A stretch of 64,000 nucleotides of DNA from an uncultured Granulosicoccaceae bacterium (GCA_937957915.1 CALGNZ010000040.1:54824-118823), one strand, 5' to 3'; shown: positions 25,574 through 37,943, numbered from the stretch's first letter. Made by a program: numbers and translations. The notes: generated by a model not told the origin, from the sequence alone.

Positions 25574-25589
25574 TGGCCTGTACATTGCA
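25574..25589 (+). promoter_or_regulatory. Sigma-54 promoter, unit 1
   Basis: TGGCCTGTACATTGCA, preceded by C. GG (-24) at 25575-25576 and GC (-12) at 25587-25588 have the obligatory ten-base spacing. It predicts a start near 25600, about 165 bases before the aptamer of the same unit. Confidence 0.8.
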
Positions 25590-25599
25590 GGTATCAGAT

Positions 25600-25955
25600 T
25601 GCAGCGATTCTACGCTCGAACAGTACCCGGTTCGAGCATAGAGCCTAAAGGTAAACCTTCAGCCCACATCGGATGTGGAGGACGAGGTCACATCGGAAGT
25701 CGTAACTGACGTGTTTGCCAGTGCTCACAACACCTTGTGTTCACTACCAGGTTACCGCTGCAGATAAAGGCAAAACCTTCGAAAGGGGGTGACGCAAAGC
25801 TTCTGGTCTACGGGATCTATTCCTACGACAGCAGAGCCGCCTTAAAAAGACGCAAGGATGTGTCTTAAGGATTATTTCAGCGATAGGGACATCGCCGTGT
25901 TTAATCCGAAAGGGCTGCTATATCTGCAAAAAAGGACGCCTGCCACCCCGCCTTA
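25600..25955 (+). ncRNA. Array RNA, unit 1: GGA-hairpin RNA with internal c-di-GMP-I aptamer
   Basis: Ends are approximate: the start is set 12 bases after the -12 element, and the end is at the GCCACCCCGCCTT tail. In order it has: an 8-bp stem-loop with an ACCCG loop (25614-25637); hairpin CCACA-tcGGA-TGTGG (25664-25678); a weaker GGA at 25695; a plain CACAA/TTGTG hairpin; the GEMM-I aptamer (25766-25842); hairpin 25847-25866 with loop AGGA on the stem AAGACGCA/TGTGTCTT; and a closing stem GGATTA/TAATCC (25869-25874/25902-25907) around hairpin GCGAT-AGGGAC-ATCGC. GGA in hairpin loops is the CsrA/RsmA binding mark. A 67-codon frame inside it starts within a hairpin and is not conserved between units, so it was not called. 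Confidence 0.75.
25766..25842 (+). promoter_or_regulatory. Cyclic-di-GMP-I (GEMM-I) riboswitch aptamer, unit 1
   Basis: It shows the conserved GEMM-I parts in order: P1 strand AGGC and GGCAAA; arm ACCTTC-GAAA-GGGGGT with the GNRA tetraloop; the invariant GACGCAAAGC; the receptor arm (TCTAC ... TACGACAGC); and closing GCCT. The ligand-contacting GGCAAA and GACGCAAAGC blocks are intact, as in c-di-GMP binders. No gene follows. Confidence 0.88.
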
Positions 25956-26418
25956 TCTTGCACCGGTTTCGATCTGCCTTGCTAAAGTATCTTTCTATTA
26001 CGCATCCAGACCGTTGACTCAATGCGTGACAAGCCAGTCAAGCAAAACCAATTGTCACTAAAGACTCAATTACCCGGTGATCAGCTTGCCTGCTAGATTG
26101 AAAGTCATCTATGCGCCTGGCTTGCCGTACCTGCGCATTAGCACACCAATATCGTATTTCCCTGCAGCGTTCACTGACTCAGAATCACAGATGGTCAAAA
26201 TTTCGGCGACGGTCACACCAGAAAATTGACAGACCCCGCTGCCGAATTCACGATTTAGATTGGGGAGCACATTGTCTATTGGGCCAGAGTAGGAATTTCC
26301 ACCCGGTTTCGCTGCAAATCTACCGCTATAAGAATGCATTCAGCCCCATCAATAAAAATAAGGCAACGTTCACACACCTAAGGTGACACATTCAGCAGAA
26401 AGCCGCCTTTTTGTGAAT
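25956..26418. other. Spacer between array units 1 and 2
   Basis: 463 bases with no convincing gene on either strand; a 76-codon minus-strand frame (26109-26339) has no recognisable domain or start signal. This is where enhancer sites for a sigma-54 activator of unit 2 would be expected, but no motif shared with the other spacers could be fixed by eye. Confidence 0.4.
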
Positions 26419-26434
26419 TGGCCCGTCGATTGCA
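26419..26434 (+). promoter_or_regulatory. Sigma-54 promoter, unit 2
   Basis: TGGCCCGTCGATTGCA, preceded by T. GG at 26420-26421 and GC at 26432-26433 have exact -24/-12 spacing. The predicted start is near 26445. Confidence 0.8.
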
Positions 26435-26444
26435 CCTGTATAAA

Positions 26445-26780
26445 TGCGATTAACAGCAAACACTATCACCTGGTGTTCGCCCGTTACAGTACAGAACACA
26501 GACGGCATTCACATTGGACGTGAACGGCGTGCTCCACCGGAAGAGCGCCGCACTCGTGGACTGTAAGCAGCAACTCGCTGGCTACTAACGGCTTAATCGT
26601 TGAAAAAGGCAAAACCTTCGAAAGGGGGTGACGCAAAGCTTCTGGTCTACGGGGTTATCCCTACGACAGCAGAGCCGCCTAAACGACGCATGGATGTGTT
26701 CGTCGGATTGTAAGGCACATGGATGTCGCCAAGTACAATCCCGGTAGGCTTCTCTACAGAGCTTTCGCCACCCTGCCTTC
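26445..26780 (+). ncRNA. Array RNA, unit 2: GGA-hairpin RNA with internal c-di-GMP-I aptamer
   Basis: Ends are approximate. In order: 5' stem-loop AACAC/GTGTT with an ACCTG loop (26459-26477); hairpin TTCAC-attGGAc-GTGAA (26508-26524); hairpin GTGCTC-caccGGAa-GAGCGC (26529-26548); aptamer 26605-26680; hairpin 26683-26703 with loop TGGA; and a perfect 8-bp closing stem GGATTGTA/TACAATCC (26705-26712/26734-26741). The closing stem surrounds hairpin 26714-26730, whose ACATGGATGT equals the CsrA/RsmA core ACANGGAUGU. It ends near GCCACCCTGCCTT. This unit is one of the two most diverged in sequence but keeps every structural part. Confidence 0.78.
26605..26680 (+). promoter_or_regulatory. Cyclic-di-GMP-I (GEMM-I) riboswitch aptamer, unit 2
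   Basis: 76 nt. It is nearly identical to the unit 1 and unit 3 aptamers: AGGCAAA, ACCTTC-GAAA-GGGGGT, GACGCAAAGC, receptor arm with GGGGTTATCCC, TACGACAGC and closing GCCT. The flanking sequence is far less conserved than the aptamer, so the aptamer is under selection. Confidence 0.9.
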
Positions 26781-27008
26781 TCTTCACACACTGCTATAAC
26801 CGTCACACTCACCACTCTGCCCGGCGGTTCGAGTTATTGCGAAGCGAAAGTACCGATTCAGGCAAACATCCAATCGACAATTGGATCGCTTCGAGCCTGC
26901 CAATTTACCCATTCCCCGATTTCGCGCCTACTGTCCAGACTCGCGAGACTGCTGACGGCCTAAAAACCACAAAACTGTTTCCGACCACCTGCATGCATTT
27001 CCTAACAT

Positions 27009-27024
27009 TGGCCTGGCATTTGCA
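27009..27024 (+). promoter_or_regulatory. Sigma-54 promoter, unit 3
   Basis: TGGCCTGGCATTTGCA, preceded by T. GG at 27010-27011 and GC at 27022-27023 are correctly spaced. The predicted start is near 27035, at the GCGGTAGACAGCACC block shared with units 4 and 5. Confidence 0.8.
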
Positions 27025-27034
27025 ACAATCCAGG

Positions 27035-27349
27035 TGCGGTAGACAGCACCATCTTCAACCGGATGGCATGCAACGTCTCTGGCAATTGTCTCCAGATTTC
27101 ACAACGGATGTGGAATGACCTGTCACATTGGAAGTGAATGAGATACGCGCCAATGCGAGATGGTTTATCGTAGAAAAAGGCAAAACCTTCGAAAGGGGGT
27201 GACGCAAAGCTTCTGGTCTACGGGGTTATCCCTACGACAGCAGAGCCGCCTGAAGCGACGCAAGGACGTGTCGCTGGATTGTCTCGGCACAGGGAATGTG
27301 GCCGTCAACAATTCCATAGGCTCGCTTGAGTTTTGCCCACCCTGCCTTT
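27035..27349 (+). ncRNA. Array RNA, unit 3: GGA-hairpin RNA with internal c-di-GMP-I aptamer
   Basis: Ends are approximate. In order: 5' stem-loop CCATC/GATGG with an AACCG loop (27049-27066); hairpin TTTCACA-acGGA-TGTGGAA (27097-27115); hairpin TCAC-attGGAa-GTGA (27123-27137); aptamer 27176-27251; hairpin 27254-27275 with an AAGGA loop on an 8-bp stem; and closing stem GGATTGT/ACAATTC (27276-27282/27308-27314). The closing stem encloses hairpin CGGCACA-GGGAA-TGTgGCCG (27285-27304). It ends near CCACCCTGCCTTT. No frame in it has a credible start. Confidence 0.78.
27176..27251 (+). promoter_or_regulatory. Cyclic-di-GMP-I (GEMM-I) riboswitch aptamer, unit 3
   Basis: 76 nt. The aptamer core is the same as in unit 2 base for base apart from flanks: AGGCAAA, GAAA tetraloop arm, GACGCAAAGC, receptor arm, closing GCCT. 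It is followed three bases later by the GGA hairpin of the unit rather than by a gene. Confidence 0.9.
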
Positions 27350-27707
27350 ACCTGTTTTCTCTTGCTCTATTGTTTTTCCTCCCTCTACTGTTTTACTCCG
27401 GAACACGTTCAGTGTTCAAATCAACACTATCGTTCTAAGCCAGATAGCCGCGACTTCAAGTATCGCCTCGCTGGTTGCCCGAAGTGAAATTGTTGACAGC
27501 AATAGTTTGATTGTGTGACCGCATTATTCGTAAACCTCGCTATCCCGTGACCTCCAAAGTTTCTTATATTGCGGGACACACATACTTTAACATCGCGTGG
27601 TCGTATCAAATCTGGTCAGGCGTAATGCTCCATTGTAAAAGTCGCTCCAGGTCAACGCGTCACAGGGATATATTTCTTTAACTTAAAAACACCAAATCTG
27701 TGAGGGC
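27350..27707. other. Spacer between array units 3 and 4
   Basis: 358 bases without a gene. It opens with a pyrimidine-rich stretch containing several T-runs (27351-27395), where unit 3 transcription could end although no strong hairpin directly precedes it. The rest would hold activator sites for unit 4. Confidence 0.4.
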
Positions 27708-27723
27708 TGGCTCACACTTTGCA
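27708..27723 (+). promoter_or_regulatory. Sigma-54 promoter, unit 4
   Basis: TGGCTCACACTTTGCA, preceded by C. GG at 27709-27710 and GC at 27721-27722. It deviates from its siblings only at position 7 (A for G). The predicted start is near 27734. Confidence 0.8.
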
Positions 27724-27733
27724 ACGATACAAG

Positions 27734-28060
27734 AGCGGTAGACAGCACCACTTGTTACCTGGGTGGATAGCACATTTGGCAACCATGGTTTTCACAATGG
27801 ATGTGAAGACAAGTCATTGGATGACCGGCCACAGGAAGTGGCAAGCTGGTTGGATTCACTGCAACGATTGCAGTCAGAAATGGTGTATCGCAGACAAAGG
27901 CAAACCCTCCGAAAGGGGGTGACGCAAAGCCACTGATCTAAGGGTATTTACCTACGACAGCAGGGCTGCCTGAATCGACACAGGGATGTGTCGAACGAAT
28001 TGTATCGGCGCATGGACAGTGGTCGCAATCAATTCTAACAGGCTTACCTCCGGCATCAGC
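27734..28060 (+). ncRNA. Array RNA, unit 4: GGA-hairpin RNA with internal c-di-GMP-I aptamer
   Basis: Ends are approximate. The clearest copy. In order: 5' stem-loop CCAC/GTGG with a TTACCTGG loop (27748-27766); three consecutive GGA hairpins, TTCACA-atGGA-TGTGAA (27791-27807), GTCA-ttGGA-TGAC (27813-27825) and GCCAC-aGGAa-GTGGC (27828-27842); aptamer 27896-27971; a perfect 8-bp hairpin TCGACACA-gGGA-TGTGTCGA (27975-27994) containing ACAGGGATGT; and closing stem GAATTG/CAATTC (27997-28002/28030-28035) around a GGA hairpin (28006-28025). The three in-line hairpins look like the repeated hairpins of CsrB/RsmZ-type RNAs. The tail lacks the CCACCC motif of units 1-3. Confidence 0.8.
27896..27971 (+). 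promoter_or_regulatory. Cyclic-di-GMP-I (GEMM-I) riboswitch aptamer, unit 4
   Basis: 76 nt. The arm differs (ACCCTCC against GGGGGT) yet still pairs around GAAA. GACGCAAAGC, CTAAGGG ... CCTACGACAGC and closing GGGCTGCCT are intact. The receptor side carries the canonical CTAAG. Confidence 0.9.
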
Positions 28061-28351
28061 GCAGCTGTGCACGAAGACCCCCACTTATACTCGGCTCACT
28101 CTTTAAACACTATTACGCACGATTCTGTGCACGATACAGCTGCGCATGACTCTGTCTGGCACCAGCCATCGTATTTCTTCACAGTTGAGCGACCAGAACG
28201 CCCTGATCGCACTGCGGTCTGTTCAAGTGAATGCCAGTTGATTGACGAACAGGTAAGATAAATGTCGTCATCGTCAGAATTTTCAGCTTCACCTGTCTGC
28301 AACAATGTTTGCAGCGAAGAAAACTTGAGTGAATTCACCATAATTTGAGAC

Positions 28352-28367
28352 TGGCTCGACATTTGCA
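28352..28367 (+). promoter_or_regulatory. Sigma-54 promoter, unit 5
   Basis: TGGCTCGACATTTGCA, preceded by C. GG at 28353-28354 and GC at 28365-28366 are correctly spaced. The predicted start is near 28378. About 45-60 bases upstream lies an inverted repeat CTGCAA-N6-TTGCAG, a possible activator or structural element. Confidence 0.8.
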
Positions 28368-28377
28368 ACTGTCTAAG

Positions 28378-28740
28378 TGCGGCGGACAGCACCACTTACT
28401 ACCTGGGTGGAACGCAACGTTCGGCAATAGACAGACTTTGCAATGGATGCGAAGTGGAAGATCAACAGGAAGATCTGCAACAAGGATTGTTACCAGTCAT
28501 TTGCCAGGCATACAGGGTCGTAAGCCATATGAACGGTCAGCCGTAGACAAAGGCAAAACTTTCGAAAGGAAGTGACGCAAAGCTTCTGGTCTAAGGGTTC
28601 ATACCTATGACAGCAGAGCTGCCTGAATCGACATAGGGATTTGTCGGATGAATTGTATAGATGAAGGGACCATCATCGTTAGCAATTCCAACAGGCTTTT
28701 TACGACCAGTATCTACACCCACCTCTGCCACGGCACCCGT
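28378..28740 (+). ncRNA. Array RNA, unit 5: GGA-hairpin RNA with internal c-di-GMP-I aptamer
   Basis: Ends are approximate. In order: 5' stem-loop CCAC/GTGG with a CTACCTGG loop (28392-28410); hairpin CTTTGCA-atGGA-TGCGAAG (28436-28454); AGATC-aacaGGAa-GATCT (28459-28476); AACA-aGGAt-TGTT (28479-28491); aptamer 28549-28624; hairpin CGACA-tagGGAtt-TGTCG (28629-28646); and closing stem GAATTG/CAATTC (28650-28655/28683-28688) around GATG-aagGGAc-CATC (28660-28674). It ends about 60 bases before the stop of the convergent FHA cyclase gene, so no plus-strand gene can be its target. Confidence 0.78.
28549..28624 (+). promoter_or_regulatory. Cyclic-di-GMP-I (GEMM-I) riboswitch aptamer, unit 5
   Basis: 76 nt. 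Its arm ACTTTC-GAAA-GGAAGT carries compensatory changes relative to ACCTTC/GGGGGT of units 1-3. GACGCAAAGC, CTAAGGG ... CCTATGACAGC and the closing GAGCTGCCT are intact. This is direct covariation evidence for the fold. Confidence 0.9.
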
Positions 28741-28800: not shown

Positions 28801-29736
28801 CTACGAACCGGCAAAGCGTGTAAGGAACTGAATTGCCCCACCCTCGTCTTGCTCATCTTTGGGTAAATACCCGGTAGCCAGAATTCCGGCTCCGTCAATC
28901 GTTACTGAATCACGATGAACAAACACATAGGGTTGACCGTTCTTTATGACATAGGTGCCATTGGTACTTATATCCTCAAGTACATACTTCCCCTGTTTGC
29001 ACTCTATTGTCGCATGCACCCTGGATGCGGCGGTGTGCATCGCCTGCAGTGTATTGTCGTCACTGCGTCCGATGGTACATTTCTGACCGTTCGATTGCAG
29101 CACCACCGTTTTGCCGGCGCTACAGAGCTCCAGTTCCAGGTTGACGGTTCGTCGCCCGTGTAGCTCGCGACTTGTTGCTACCTGCGTTGCCGTATCCAGG
29201 TTTTGTAGCTCCCAGGGAATTCGATAGATACTCAATGGCGTATCAACACCACGCAACGGCAATACATCCAGCAGTTGTGCAGGACCACAAGGTGTTGCCG
29301 ACAGTCGATCGACTACTTCCTGGGTTGTCATTATTTCGTGGGTATTAGCCAGGCCGGATACGCGAGCCGCAATGTTCACTGCATTACCGTAAACATCACC
29401 ACGATCAGAAATCGCAAGCCCCCAGTGAAAACCTACACGCACAGACAACGGACTGTTTCGGTGCACCTCCTGGATAGCGACTGCCGCTGCACAAGCGGTA
29501 TCGCAATCTTCAAACCTGGCAAGTACTGCATCCCCTACCGTACGCAACAGTTCCCCGCCAGCGGTTTCCACTGCATTGCGCATATTAGTCAGACTGTCGG
29601 TAATAAGCTGATGCGCCTGGCTATCACCCGCACGTTGGTAGAGACTGGTGCTACCGCCGATATCCGCAAACAGAATGGCCATCGGGGTTGCCACTTTGCC
29701 ACTACCGGTATCAGCATCCTGAGCCAACTCAACCAT
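28801..29736 (-). CDS. Class III nucleotidyl cyclase with C-terminal FHA domain
   Basis: 311 residues. The cyclase domain (about 18-190) has MAILFADIGGSTSLYQRAGD with the first metal aspartate, GGELLRTVGDAVLARF with the second, and VRVGFHWGLAISDRGDVYGNAVNIAARV, the typical dimerisation/substrate region. A forkhead-associated domain follows (about 215-300) with CTIGRSDDN, SRVHATIECKQG and DISTNGTYV, which binds phosphothreonine. It would make cAMP (or cGMP) under Ser/Thr-kinase input. It converges on the RNA array; a functional link is possible only by proximity. Confidence 0.88.
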   Translation of the reverse strand: MVELAQDADTGSGKVATPMAILFADIGGSTSLYQRAGDSQAHQLITDSLTNMRNAVETAGGELLRTVGDAVLARFEDCDTACAAAVAIQEVHRNSPLSVRVGFHWGLAISDRGDVYGNAVNIAARVSGLANTHEIMTTQEVVDRLSATPCGPAQLLDVLPLRGVDTPLSIYRIPWELQNLDTATQVATSRELHGRRTVNLELELCSAGKTVVLQSNGQKCTIGRSDDNTLQAMHTAASRVHATIECKQGKYVLEDISTNGTYVIKNGQPYVFVHRDSVTIDGAGILATGYLPKDEQDEGGAIQFLTRFAGS

Positions 29737-35456: not shown

Positions 35457-37943
35457 GTGACTCGTCTAACTGCACTCCTTTACCTGGCAATAGGAATTCT
35501 GCTCAGTTCATGTTCTTCTGAACCAGATGTGTTGTACCAGGACATCAATGGCCTCGTTGTCATTGAAGCCGAAACGTGGTCATCAAAAAAGGATTCCAGC
35601 ACCCGAACGTGGATCGAATCATCGTCGTGGGACATCGACACGATTGCCAAACTCGGTACTTTGCAACCCGACGCTGAATCGATTAACTCCGCAAAAAATC
35701 GCAACCCGACCGCTGTATACGACATCTACTTCGAAGCAACCGGCCCCTACTATCTTTGGGTCAGGGCCAGGTTAACTACTGCGAGCGCCAGTGCAGTACT
35801 CAATCTGAGCCTCGAACCTTCTTCAGGCAGTGACGCCATACAAATCGCAGAATTCAGTGATCAATGGCAGTGGATTGCACTGGGCATCAATCAAAATGCT
35901 CTATCAGTTACTGTTGCGAACAGCGGCAGACAGTCGCTCAGGATGACAGCGAATACCAGCGCGTTGCTCGTGGACAAGATTATCCTGACCGCTCAACCCG
36001 ATTACCTGCCCGCTGGCAATGGCCCGGCTGCTACTCTGATTGTTACCGACGCACCGCTCACCGAATCAGGTGACGATAGCGAGCACACCGCTGCTGAGGC
36101 CGCTGCAGATGGTAGCGAAGAAAACACTGATGAAGACGCAACACCTGACGAACGCAATCATTCAGTGACAGAAAACTCAGAGCACGGCATTGCTAATCCA
36201 GGTGGTGCGGTAAATGATCCGTCGACCACGGACAGCGCCGCTGTGGTGCACGATCAGACGGGTGGTGCAAACGCACAGCCACAGGTCACTATATCGGTGG
36301 GCGGCACCCCGACTACTCACACCACGATTATTCTCACCGAGCAATTGCAATTAGTGGCAGACGCGACCGACGACGGCTTACCAACTGCTGCGCTGTACAC
36401 GTACTGGACAAAGGTTACAGGACCCGATGATGTTGCATTCAGCGACCAGACTGCCCGTGACCCGATTGTTCGTTTCGATACCGTTGGCACCTATACCCTA
36501 CAGGTCAGTGCGAACGACACAGAGTTGTATAAAAACGCGATGATTACCATCGACGTTACCGCCAGCACGACAGCAGCTACTGAATCGAACACCTCTAGCG
36601 ATACTGATTCGACAAACGACCAGAACAGCACAACAACACAGCCACAGGCAGACCCGGTCGCCGACAGACAGCCGCCTGCAGTATCCATCAGTGGCGCGGC
36701 TACCGTTGCAACAGGAGTGGCGCTGGAACTCACAGCGACTACTACGGCAGTGTCCGACAGCCCGGTTTATTACTACTGGAATGCGGCGCACAGTGGCAAT
36801 GTGATAACGTTTGACGATCATCAGCAGCAAACAACCAACGTCAGTTTCGATCAACCCGGGCAATACCTTATTCAGGTTACTGTGAGTGACGACATCAGCT
36901 ATATCAACGCCACTCATGAGATCACGGTTACCAGCTCATTGAATGCAGAGGCAGTTGTCACAAACGATCAAAGTGTTGTTGACTCACAAACCGATAATCA
37001 CACCGAACAATCGCAGGCAAATCTGACAAACAGCAACGTCGGCGCTGCCCACCGGTGGCATCAGGCTTCCAGTCAGGGTGCTGCTGCAAAGCGGCACGAA
37101 ACCAGTGGCGTTGCTGTAAACGGCAAGATGTACGTCATTGGCGGGCGCGGACACCAGCCAATTGATGTTTATGACACCGCCAGTAATACATGGTCTCAAG
37201 CTGCCAGGCCACCGCTGGAAATGCATCACTTTCAAGCCGTCGCCATCGACCACATCATTTATGTCGTGGGTGCAGCAACATGCTGTTATCCGGTAGAGAT
37301 TAATATTCCCAACGTCTATCAGTTTGATACAAACAGCGGACAATGGAGCAAGGGCGCGGCAATACCCGGCAATCGTTTGCGCGGCTCAACGGCTGCCGCT
37401 GTTTACAATAAAAAAATATATATAGTTGGTGGCAATACCAAGGGCCACTCCGGTGGTGCCGTCAACTGGTTTGACGAATTTGATCCGGCTACCGGGCAGT
37501 GGAAGGCGCTTGCCAATGCGCCCGACGCCAGAGATCACGCAACCATCGCAGTCGTTGGCGATCAGCTGGTTGTAGCTGGTGGCAGACGCAGCAACTTCCC
37601 CGATACTTTCGGTAATACGGTCGGCAGAACTAATGTTTACGATCTTAAACAGCAGCGTTGGCAAACAGCAGCGAATATCCCAACGCAACGTGCAGGCACA
37701 ATGGCGGTTGGCGTTGGTAGCGAGCTCATTGTCATCGGTGGTGAATCGCTAGCCAGCAACAATGCCCACAATGCCGTAGAAGCTTTCGATATATTCACAG
37801 GCACCTGGCGCCGCTTAAACCCGTTACCGACGCCACGGCATGGTGGAGCCGCGGCCGTTATTGACAGTCAAATTCACGTTGTAGCAGGTTCAATGCAACT
37901 TGGCGGAGCGCCAGAGACCAACGCCCACGAAATATTGAAATAG
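35457..37943 (+). CDS. Large lipoprotein with carbohydrate-binding-like, PKD-like and Kelch domains
   Basis: 828 residues starting at GTG. A lipoprotein signal (LAIGILLSSC) is followed by a beta-sandwich region of the carbohydrate-binding-module type (VVIEAETWSS ... YYLWVRARL). Two PKD/Ig-like repeats come next (about 275-370 and 400-490), separated by D/S/T/N-rich linkers. From ~530 five Kelch repeats form a beta-propeller (MYVIGGRGHQPIDVYDTASNTWSQ, IYIVGGNTKGHSGG, LVVAGGRRSNFP, LIVIGGESLAS, IHVVAGS). It is probably a surface or periplasmic adhesin or glycan-binding protein. Confidence 0.8.
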   Translation: MTRLTALLYLAIGILLSSCSSEPDVLYQDINGLVVIEAETWSSKKDSSTRTWIESSSWDIDTIAKLGTLQPDAESINSAKNRNPTAVYDIYFEATGPYYLWVRARLTTASASAVLNLSLEPSSGSDAIQIAEFSDQWQWIALGINQNALSVTVANSGRQSLRMTANTSALLVDKIILTAQPDYLPAGNGPAATLIVTDAPLTESGDDSEHTAAEAAADGSEENTDEDATPDERNHSVTENSEHGIANPGGAVNDPSTTDSAAVVHDQTGGANAQPQVTISVGGTPTTHTTIILTEQLQLVADATDDGLPTAALYTYWTKVTGPDDVAFSDQTARDPIVRFDTVGTYTLQVSANDTELYKNAMITIDVTASTTAATESNTSSDTDSTNDQNSTTTQPQADPVADRQPPAVSISGAATVATGVALELTATTTAVSDSPVYYYWNAAHSGNVITFDDHQQQTTNVSFDQPGQYLIQVTVSDDISYINATHEITVTSSLNAEAVVTNDQSVVDSQTDNHTEQSQANLTNSNVGAAHRWHQASSQGAAAKRHETSGVAVNGKMYVIGGRGHQPIDVYDTASNTWSQAARPPLEMHHFQAVAIDHIIYVVGAATCCYPVEINIPNVYQFDTNSGQWSKGAAIPGNRLRGSTAAAVYNKKIYIVGGNTKGHSGGAVNWFDEFDPATGQWKALANAPDARDHATIAVVGDQLVVAGGRRSNFPDTFGNTVGRTNVYDLKQQRWQTAANIPTQRAGTMAVGVGSELIVIGGESLASNNAHNAVEAFDIFTGTWRRLNPLPTPRHGGAAAVIDSQIHVVAGSMQLGGAPETNAHEILK

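Follow-up and report, generated by a model that had tools for sequence, protein, structure and literature searches.

Cyclic di-guanosine monophosphate (c-di-GMP) and the CsrA/Rsm system both act globally to switch bacteria between a motile and a sessile way of life. The c-di-GMP-I (GEMM-I) aptamer family (RF01051, clan CL00126) is classed by Rfam as cis-regulatory. Here, we analyzed a 64,000-nucleotide stretch of DNA from an uncultured Granulosicoccaceae bacterium (GCA_937957915.1 CALGNZ010000040.1:54824-118823; hereafter the window), in which five tandem rightward units form an array of about 3.2 kb between positions 25574 and ~28700. Each unit combines a sigma-54-type -24/-12 promoter motif, a GEMM-I aptamer and hairpins carrying GGA in the loop. 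An earlier note on this DNA had placed five rightward repeats at 25574-28740, which the Rfam matches and the promoter pattern match confirmed. On the basis of these features, we consider it reasonably probable that each unit is a stand-alone small RNA (sRNA) that titrates proteins of the CsrA/RsmA family, with c-di-GMP as its predicted modulator.

The Qrr RNAs come as several sigma-54-driven sRNA copies, as the units are predicted to, but they act by base-pairing with mRNAs and have no aptamer. The units match GEMM-I in aptamer sequence and structure (75.7-83 bits in four units, 74.6 in the fifth), whereas their aptamer lies inside a GGA-hairpin RNA without a recognizable gene behind it and base-pairs, through its 5' flank, with the 5' end of that RNA. 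Like CsrB, CsrC and RsmX/Y/Z, they carry several GGA-loop hairpins near the CsrA consensus and no gene, in a genome that has csrA. Unlike those RNAs, they have a sigma-54-type promoter rather than a GacA/UvrY site, a built-in ligand aptamer, fewer sites per RNA, five tandem units and no match to the Rfam Csr/Rsm families anywhere in the window. The closest working analogue is EutX/Rli55, in which, according to PMC5821096, adenosylcobalamin (AdoCbl) shortens an RNA that otherwise sequesters EutV and that is made from a constitutive promoter. Both systems place a riboswitch in a stand-alone RNA with regulator-binding sites, the likeness being one of architecture only, with CsrA sites assigned by resemblance. 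The array differs in its ligand, in a CsrA-family regulator instead of EutV, in sites on both sides of the aptamer, and in a sigma-54-type promoter with five tandem copies where EutX is constitutive. The moaA molybdenum cofactor (Moco) riboswitch is bound by CsrA, which controls translation of the adjacent gene (PMC7652899). There too one RNA answers to a ligand aptamer and to CsrA, but an adjacent gene is translated, while the units have no recognizable gene. The claim that no RNA of this plan has been described stood within the open-access literature searched (most subscription papers lay outside its scope), where none was found, but EutX/Rli55 is a clear precedent for the capture of a regulator by an RNA with a riboswitch, and moaA for the action of CsrA on a riboswitch aptamer.

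Organization of the array

In every unit the order is TGGC-N7-TTGCA, predicted start, domain A (about 130-165 nucleotides (nt) of structured RNA between predicted start and aptamer), GEMM-I aptamer and domain B (about 70 nt after the aptamer, holding the GGA hairpins HA and HB and ending in (A/G)GGC). Window units 1-5 are abbreviated U1-U5, loci elsewhere carry L-numbers and genomes G-numbers. The predicted start was set 26 nt after the T of TGG, and the extents of the sRNA bodies are inferred, in unit 1 from promoter position and last conserved element:

25600..25915, + strand, unit 1 predicted sRNA body (minimum extent)
26445..26749, + strand, unit 2 predicted sRNA body
27035..27321, + strand, unit 3 predicted sRNA body
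27734..28043, + strand, unit 4 predicted sRNA body
28378..28697, + strand, unit 5 predicted sRNA body

Tandem Repeats Finder did not report the units among its repeats because its longest period is 500 and the units share little sequence outside the aptamer.

Sigma-54-type promoter motifs

The TGGC-N7-TTGCA motif was found 160-190 nt upstream of the aptamer in all five window units, with the GG-N10-GC spacing of a -24/-12 promoter, in agreement with the promoters that had been read in every unit:

25574..25589, + strand, unit 1 -24/-12 promoter motif TGGCCTGTACATTGCA, pattern match, predicted start ~25600
26419..26434, + strand, unit 2 -24/-12 promoter motif TGGCCCGTCGATTGCA, pattern match, predicted start ~26445
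27009..27024, + strand, unit 3 -24/-12 promoter motif TGGCCTGGCATTTGCA, pattern match, predicted start ~27035
27708..27723, + strand, unit 4 -24/-12 promoter motif TGGCTCACACTTTGCA, pattern match, predicted start ~27734
28352..28367, + strand, unit 5 -24/-12 promoter motif TGGCTCGACATTTGCA, pattern match, predicted start ~28378

The + strand of the window contains no other match, and the - strand contains one, at 36281. Across the genome (5.38 Mb, 89% complete) there are 53 matches vs 34 for a reversed control; despite this number, five motifs in register upstream of five aptamers are not explained by chance. A looser form, TGG-N8-TTGCA, lies 174-312 nt upstream of the aptamer in all five distinct units of same-genus relatives, bringing the -24/-12 element to 10/10 distinct same-genus units with the window's five included. 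The genome has one copy of rpoN. The reading of the units as putative stand-alone sRNAs of sigma-54 type is supported. A canonical GacA/UvrY site was rejected as the activator element: the GacA-box pattern was not above control, with 2 one-mismatch sites in the genome vs 5 for the control, both on other contigs.

GEMM-I aptamers

Rfam covariance-model matches above the gathering score bear out the aptamer proposed for each of the five units, and the array holds all five RF01051 matches of the genome:

25760..25845, + strand, unit 1 GEMM-I aptamer, RF03167 at 65 bits in the window scan, RF01051 at 74.6 bits genome-wide
26598..26682, + strand, unit 2 GEMM-I aptamer, RF01051, 77.3 bits
27169..27253, + strand, unit 3 GEMM-I aptamer, RF01051, 75.7 bits
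27889..27973, + strand, unit 4 GEMM-I aptamer, RF01051, 76.4 bits
28542..28626, + strand, unit 5 GEMM-I aptamer, RF01051, 83 bits

All five window aptamers contain GGC, CGCAAA and a 3' GCC, which we take to be the sites of G20, A47 and C92, and the 3' GCC is presumably where the ligand-contact C92 lies. PMC4744006 gives these three residues as ligand contacts of the c-di-GMP-I aptamer.

The aptamer could instead be a relic, or differently tuned, within a CsrA sponge for which c-di-GMP is irrelevant. This explanation gains from the fact that gating is a prediction only and that unit 1 best fits the c-di-GMP-I-GGC variant model (RF03167, same clan) in the window scan. Nevertheless, we regard it as highly improbable, as no other part of the window units is as well conserved as the aptamer: identity between units is 82-100% in the aptamer core against 55-77% in domain B, 43-58% in domain A and 36-52% in the promoter region. 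Divergence between the units has thus spared aptamer, GGA hairpins and helices, an argument for selection on both the aptamer and the sponge part. The aptamer cores of units 2 and 3 (26607-26679 and 27178-27250) are identical over 73 nt while their domains A are only 44% identical, which may reflect gene conversion or very strong constraint.

GGA hairpins and resemblance to CsrA sites

Domain B of each unit contains the hairpins HA and HB:

25849..25864, + strand, unit 1 GGA hairpin HA
25869..25907, + strand, unit 1 GGA hairpin HB
26684..26704, + strand, unit 2 GGA hairpin HA
26705..26741, + strand, unit 2 GGA hairpin HB
27255..27274, + strand, unit 3 GGA hairpin HA
27276..27314, + strand, unit 3 GGA hairpin HB
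27975..27994, + strand, unit 4 GGA hairpin HA
27997..28035, + strand, unit 4 GGA hairpin HB
28629..28646, + strand, unit 5 GGA hairpin HA
28650..28688, + strand, unit 5 GGA hairpin HB

In order to score these hairpins, we summed the probability that a GGA lies in a hairpin loop and compared it with 100 dinucleotide shuffles per unit. After the aptamer, the sum is 1.50-1.98 in U1-U5 vs shuffle means of 0.08-0.15, and no shuffle reaches any of the native values, so that the two GGA-loop hairpins claimed behind each aptamer hold in every unit. Over nine units (the five of the window and four of relatives) the sums are 1.05-1.98 vs shuffle means of 0.06-0.18, and are reached by 0/100 shuffles in eight units and by 1/100 in the ninth (L017). 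Before the aptamer, the sums for U1-U5 are 0.93, 1.07, 0.21, 1.95 and 2.79, reached by 3, 0, 25, 0 and 0 of 100 shuffles; the two or three hairpins read there by the earlier note could be kept for U4 and U5 only, and U3 is not above chance. In the relatives L011, L016, L017 and L029, 0, 6, 1 and 1 of 100 shuffles reach the pre-aptamer sum, L016 being marginal.

In 6 of 10 units, HA fits the pattern ACRCA(N)GGAUGUGU (nine checked by pattern, L011 by eye). This is close to the CsrA SELEX (systematic evolution of ligands by exponential enrichment) consensus RUACARGGAUGU and to the CsrB element CAGGA(U/A/C)G, as both are given in PMC7652899. Hairpins that resemble the SELEX consensus thus flank the aptamer, in support of the CsrA/RsmA type read by the earlier note. 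The genome has five csrA genes, all beginning MLILTRR and containing VHREE. csrA is found in 47 of the 48 genomes of the order (1-6 matches each), and its number is therefore not specific to sponge carriers.

The units could also be c-di-GMP-responsive sRNAs that base-pair with mRNAs in the manner of Qrr, with the GGA loops as seed loops, since multi-copy sigma-54 families of that kind exist. However, each RNA presents GGA in the loops of several structured hairpins that resemble the CsrA consensus, and within domain B, to which the alignments used here were confined, no conserved single-stranded segment is conspicuous (no search for mRNA targets was made). We therefore judge base-pairing an improbable mode of action.

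Helices P0, HB and P_AB

Two helices are new relative to the earlier note. The first, P0, is a long-range helix between the first bases of the predicted RNA and the bases just before the aptamer. A 5' stem-loop had been proposed at this place; it is better described as P0. Counted from the T of TGG, the 5' strand of P0 begins at a distance of 27 nt in each of the window's five units:

25601..25606, + strand, unit 1 P0 5' strand GCAGCG, pairs with 25756-25761
26446..26454, + strand, unit 2 P0 5' strand, pairs with 26592-26600
27036..27044, + strand, unit 3 P0 5' strand, pairs with 27163-27171
27735..27743, + strand, unit 4 P0 5' strand, pairs with 27883-27891
28379..28387, + strand, unit 5 P0 5' strand, pairs with 28536-28544

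When strands were swapped among seven short units, 12/5040 swaps reached the native pairing of P0, in which 58 of the 63 hand-chosen cells are paired. The long units L016, L024 and L029 were kept for an energy version on ten units, where the figure is 74/20000 swaps. The lower stem of HB pairs in 61 of 63 cells over nine units (without L017, whose stem contains one additional base), and at four pair positions both partners have changed; a tool-made alignment of ten gives five such positions. Comparison thus supports P0 and HB. A further helix, P1, between the 5' flank and the 5' arm of HA, was dropped on inspection because it fails in several units, and P0 accounts for that flank.

The second new helix, P_AB, would pair the aptamer's 3' GCC(U)(N) with (N)(A/G)GGC after HB:

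25911..25915, + strand, unit 1 P_AB 3' strand AGGGC, pairs with 25839-25843
26745..26749, + strand, unit 2 P_AB 3' strand UAGGC, pairs with 26677-26681
27317..27321, + strand, unit 3 P_AB 3' strand UAGGC, pairs with 27248-27252
28039..28043, + strand, unit 4 P_AB 3' strand CAGGC, pairs with 27968-27972
28692..28696, + strand, unit 5 P_AB 3' strand CAGGC, pairs with 28621-28625, U-run next

In units of the L016/L019/L029 type the pairing is ACCUG with CAGGU or CGGGU, after an extra hairpin. Of the hand-chosen P_AB cells 49/50 pair, a value that 35/100000 swaps reach. On the tool-made alignment 88% of P_AB cells are paired, three L016-type sequences being scored at another partner. HA, HB and P_AB together reach a covariation of 0.296 on alignment A2 vs 0.204 in shuffles (0/500 reach it) and at most 0.081 when slid. 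P_AB is probably a real helix, and base changes support it moderately.

Coding potential downstream of the aptamers

An ordinary cis-acting c-di-GMP riboswitch would sit in the leader of a gene, here a short or unannotated one, and the GGA hairpins would be incidental. Such an arrangement is suggested by the GEMM-I loci sampled outside the order, where 100 of the 106 aptamers with enough DNA precede an open reading frame of at least 80 amino acids (aa) within 350 nt, and by the window itself, where frames of 82-131 aa begin at most 350 nt from four of the five aptamers. The array contains eight + strand frames of at least 60 aa (61-131 aa), so that the statement that no open frame follows was right in substance but not to the letter: six of the eight were tested and none has a Pfam match. 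No recognizable gene that the units might control was found downstream of them in the window. In same-genus relatives, no frame of at least 80 aa lies within 350 nt in any of the five units with enough DNA. The next long frame is convergent at L142, L143, L147, L148 and L149. At L141, L144 and L146 the distance to a downstream frame on the same strand is ~360, 440 and 920 nt, and a distant mRNA may be possible there.

The 131-aa frame at 26723-27118 has two database relatives, P0001 and P0002 (143 and 165 aa), whose sequences fit, at the start, translated HA and HB of one unit and, at the end, the translated promoter region, 5' part and GGA hairpin that belong to the following unit. When searched back, P0001 matches two separate pieces, 26690-26797 (with a stop inside) and 26996-27112. 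Both proteins are likely mis-annotations of RNA arrays. If so, the tandem plan occurs in up to 14 further contigs (13 for P0001, one for P0002), which may be redundant. P0002 apparently also translates a GEMM-I aptamer. Two protein searches with other array frames found nothing. The missing Pfam matches of six of the eight frames, the same-genus units without a nearby frame, the convergent next frames and a frame whose relatives match over RNA elements, with a counterpart that splits in two here, one piece holding a stop, make the cis-leader explanation very improbable.

Distribution in relatives and contrast with other GEMM-I loci

RF01051 was found in 13 of the 48 genomes of the order and in 5 of 14 in the genus, own genome included. 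The six matches in the same-genus genomes G006, G007, G008 and G014 represent five distinct units, L019 and L024 being counted as one on account of an exact 141-base overlap at two contig ends. These five units repeat the plan, and four aptamers in two sister genera (G002, G004 and G005) do so in part, with a GGA hairpin after all four (sums 0.97-1.85). In the three genera, 14 units have enough DNA for this measure, and every one has a post-aptamer sum of at least 0.8 (0.97-2.00). In G014, L144 and L145 form one unit over two contigs with a 141-base overlap; the next unit is 0.9 kb away, and G014 therefore has at least two units in tandem.

We built a domain-B covariance model, R1, from ten units and ran it, like the GEMM-I model, on the related genomes, as had been suggested; the units proved to be conserved in relatives. 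R1 finds, although it was held out, the one sister-genus unit that has a -24/-12 motif (G005:C44, 52.2 bits, E 3.8e-9) and two more weakly (26.8 and 23.8 bits). With stricter filters it finds 11 places in the 48 genomes, ten of them its own training sequences. All lie beside a GEMM-I and no aptamer-less copy appeared, a result biased by the first ~16 model positions being aptamer.

Other GEMM-I loci are organized differently. In two further genera, g5 and g6, the GGA-loop sum is 0.00 after all ten aptamers (with only 29 nt of DNA behind L013 and 152 nt behind L021); a frame lies within 350 nt of five of these aptamers, and a further three are followed by the next aptamer of their tandem. In g5 (L150 7055-7327, L151 3634-4080, L152 10818-11327, and L153) two or three GEMM-I stand in tandem, spaced ~180-420 nt apart, without GGA loops. 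They lie ahead of an open frame in L150 and L151, the middle copy in L151 being degenerate (39 bits), and look like tandem cis riboswitches.

A class-wide sample has GEMM-I in 67 of 369 genomes. Outside the order, one of 112 aptamers has a post-aptamer sum of at least 0.8, none reaches 1.5, and seven of the 112 places have a loose -24/-12 motif. The survey left out the two weakest places outside the order (G058:C124 and G408:C18). L113, L118 and L128 gave sums of 0.76-0.81 under a looser aptamer pattern and another downstream window, and all were below 0.8 in the final survey. As far as this sample shows, the plan belongs to part of one family and not to GEMM-I at large. Genomes G213, G320 and G264 from other orders have 11, 6 and 6 GEMM-I over several contigs, 22 of the 23 with a frame of at least 80 aa within 350 nt. 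At L175 and L198 a -24/-12 element stands 62 and 42 nt, respectively, upstream of a GEMM-I with an open frame behind it, so that sigma-54 and a c-di-GMP riboswitch are combined there in the classical cis layout.

Downstream of the array, a - strand gene (28801-29736) whose product combines an FHA domain with the catalytic domain of an adenylate/guanylate cyclase converges on it. Eight neighborhood proteins (DUF3108, FHA-cyclase, metH and others) were unmatched in 13 loci around GEMM-I in relatives; the units are therefore not tied to one place.

Proposed mechanism and its alternatives

Several features can be read directly from the DNA: a promoter motif, an aptamer and GGA hairpins in each unit, the absence of a recognizable gene downstream, the conserved plan, and base changes that keep P0 and HB paired. 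Beyond these, we propose, at roughly even confidence, that Granulosicoccaceae have a multi-copy sRNA family driven by sigma-54, whose GEMM-I aptamer competes with the helix closing the 3' GGA domain and thereby sets CsrA capture, which would make it a riboswitch with a sponge output. Sigma-54 and an activator would switch the array on, and the RNA 5' end would be tucked into P0, which would shield it from degradation. CsrA dimers would bind to GGA hairpins on either side of the aptamer. Without ligand, the aptamer's 3' GCC would pair with the AGGC after HB, and P_AB would lock both 3' GGA hairpins in a closed junction. With c-di-GMP bound, the aptamer would need the GCC, P_AB would open and the 3' domain would be released. 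The ligand is expected to remove the GCC from P_AB because G20, A47 and C92 contact it and C92 presumably lies in the GCC. Gating would act through the geometry or the lifetime of the 3' domain. Our guess, with a slight lean, is that release raises CsrA capture, so that high c-di-GMP would lower free CsrA and both would push toward the sessile state; in the alternative direction, opening would expose the 3' end to decay.

We also folded the seven units with a valid constraint (U1-U5, L011 and L017) with the aptamer forced. The modeled cost of forcing is 6.1-7.7 kcal/mol. The GGA-loop sum hardly moves in six units (U1-U3, U5, L011 and L017); that of U4 drops from 4.11 to 3.36, with most of the loss at HB. 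In general, the ligand is therefore not predicted to make or unmake GGA hairpins, and the suggestion that exposed GGA sites change in number with c-di-GMP is not borne out by this model.

The nearly constant loop count would suit the main rival, a CsrA sponge in which c-di-GMP sets the length or lifetime of the RNA through termination or decay and not the geometry of its sites. This rival has a precedent in the shortening of EutX by AdoCbl (PMC5821096). Additionally, the 100 nt after AGGC are C-rich and G-poor in all five units (C/G 1.8-2.6; window median 1.1, 95th percentile 1.8), as expected for, and compatible with, Rho-dependent ends. However, unlike in EutX, no terminator hairpin with a U-run is seen at the end of the aptamer, and a U-run follows P_AB in unit 5 only. 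We consider this rival unlikely, though not negligible.

Several observations weigh against the proposed sponge and its gating, in addition to the largely constant loop count under forced folding and the chance-level pre-aptamer loops of U3. Each RNA offers ~2-5 GGA loops vs 22 GGA sequences in E. coli CsrB (PMC7652899). In seven of nine relatives' units (L011, L017, L018, L019, L020, L027 and L029) the post-aptamer sum is only 0.97-1.22, about one GGA loop by a strict loop criterion. P_AB is short, and its match in a single unit is within chance (equaled by 3.5-34% of shuffles in nine units and 93% in L011). The strands in the swap tests of P_AB, P0 and HB were hand-picked, and on the tool-made alignment the first pair of P_AB is broken in 4 of 10 sequences and the last in 2. 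No common palindrome or word that might serve as an activator site was found upstream of the units. No intrinsic terminator pattern fits the 3' ends, the sole + strand match being a GGA hairpin inside unit 1. In the sister genera, three of the four units lack a recognizable -24/-12 motif (present in one), and frames of 83-121 aa lie at most 350 nt after three of the four aptamers. Finally, 9 of the 14 same-genus genomes have no GEMM-I at all, and the system is therefore dispensable.

Implications

A link between the two pathways is already known, as CsrA represses genes that make c-di-GMP (PMC7652899). If the proposed c-di-GMP-tuned CsrA sponge is correct, c-di-GMP and CsrA would in addition be joined at one RNA, with no signaling protein between them. 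The array would be a further natural case, like EutX/Rli55, in which the output of a riboswitch is the capture of a regulator, and it would indicate that GEMM-I can work without a downstream gene.

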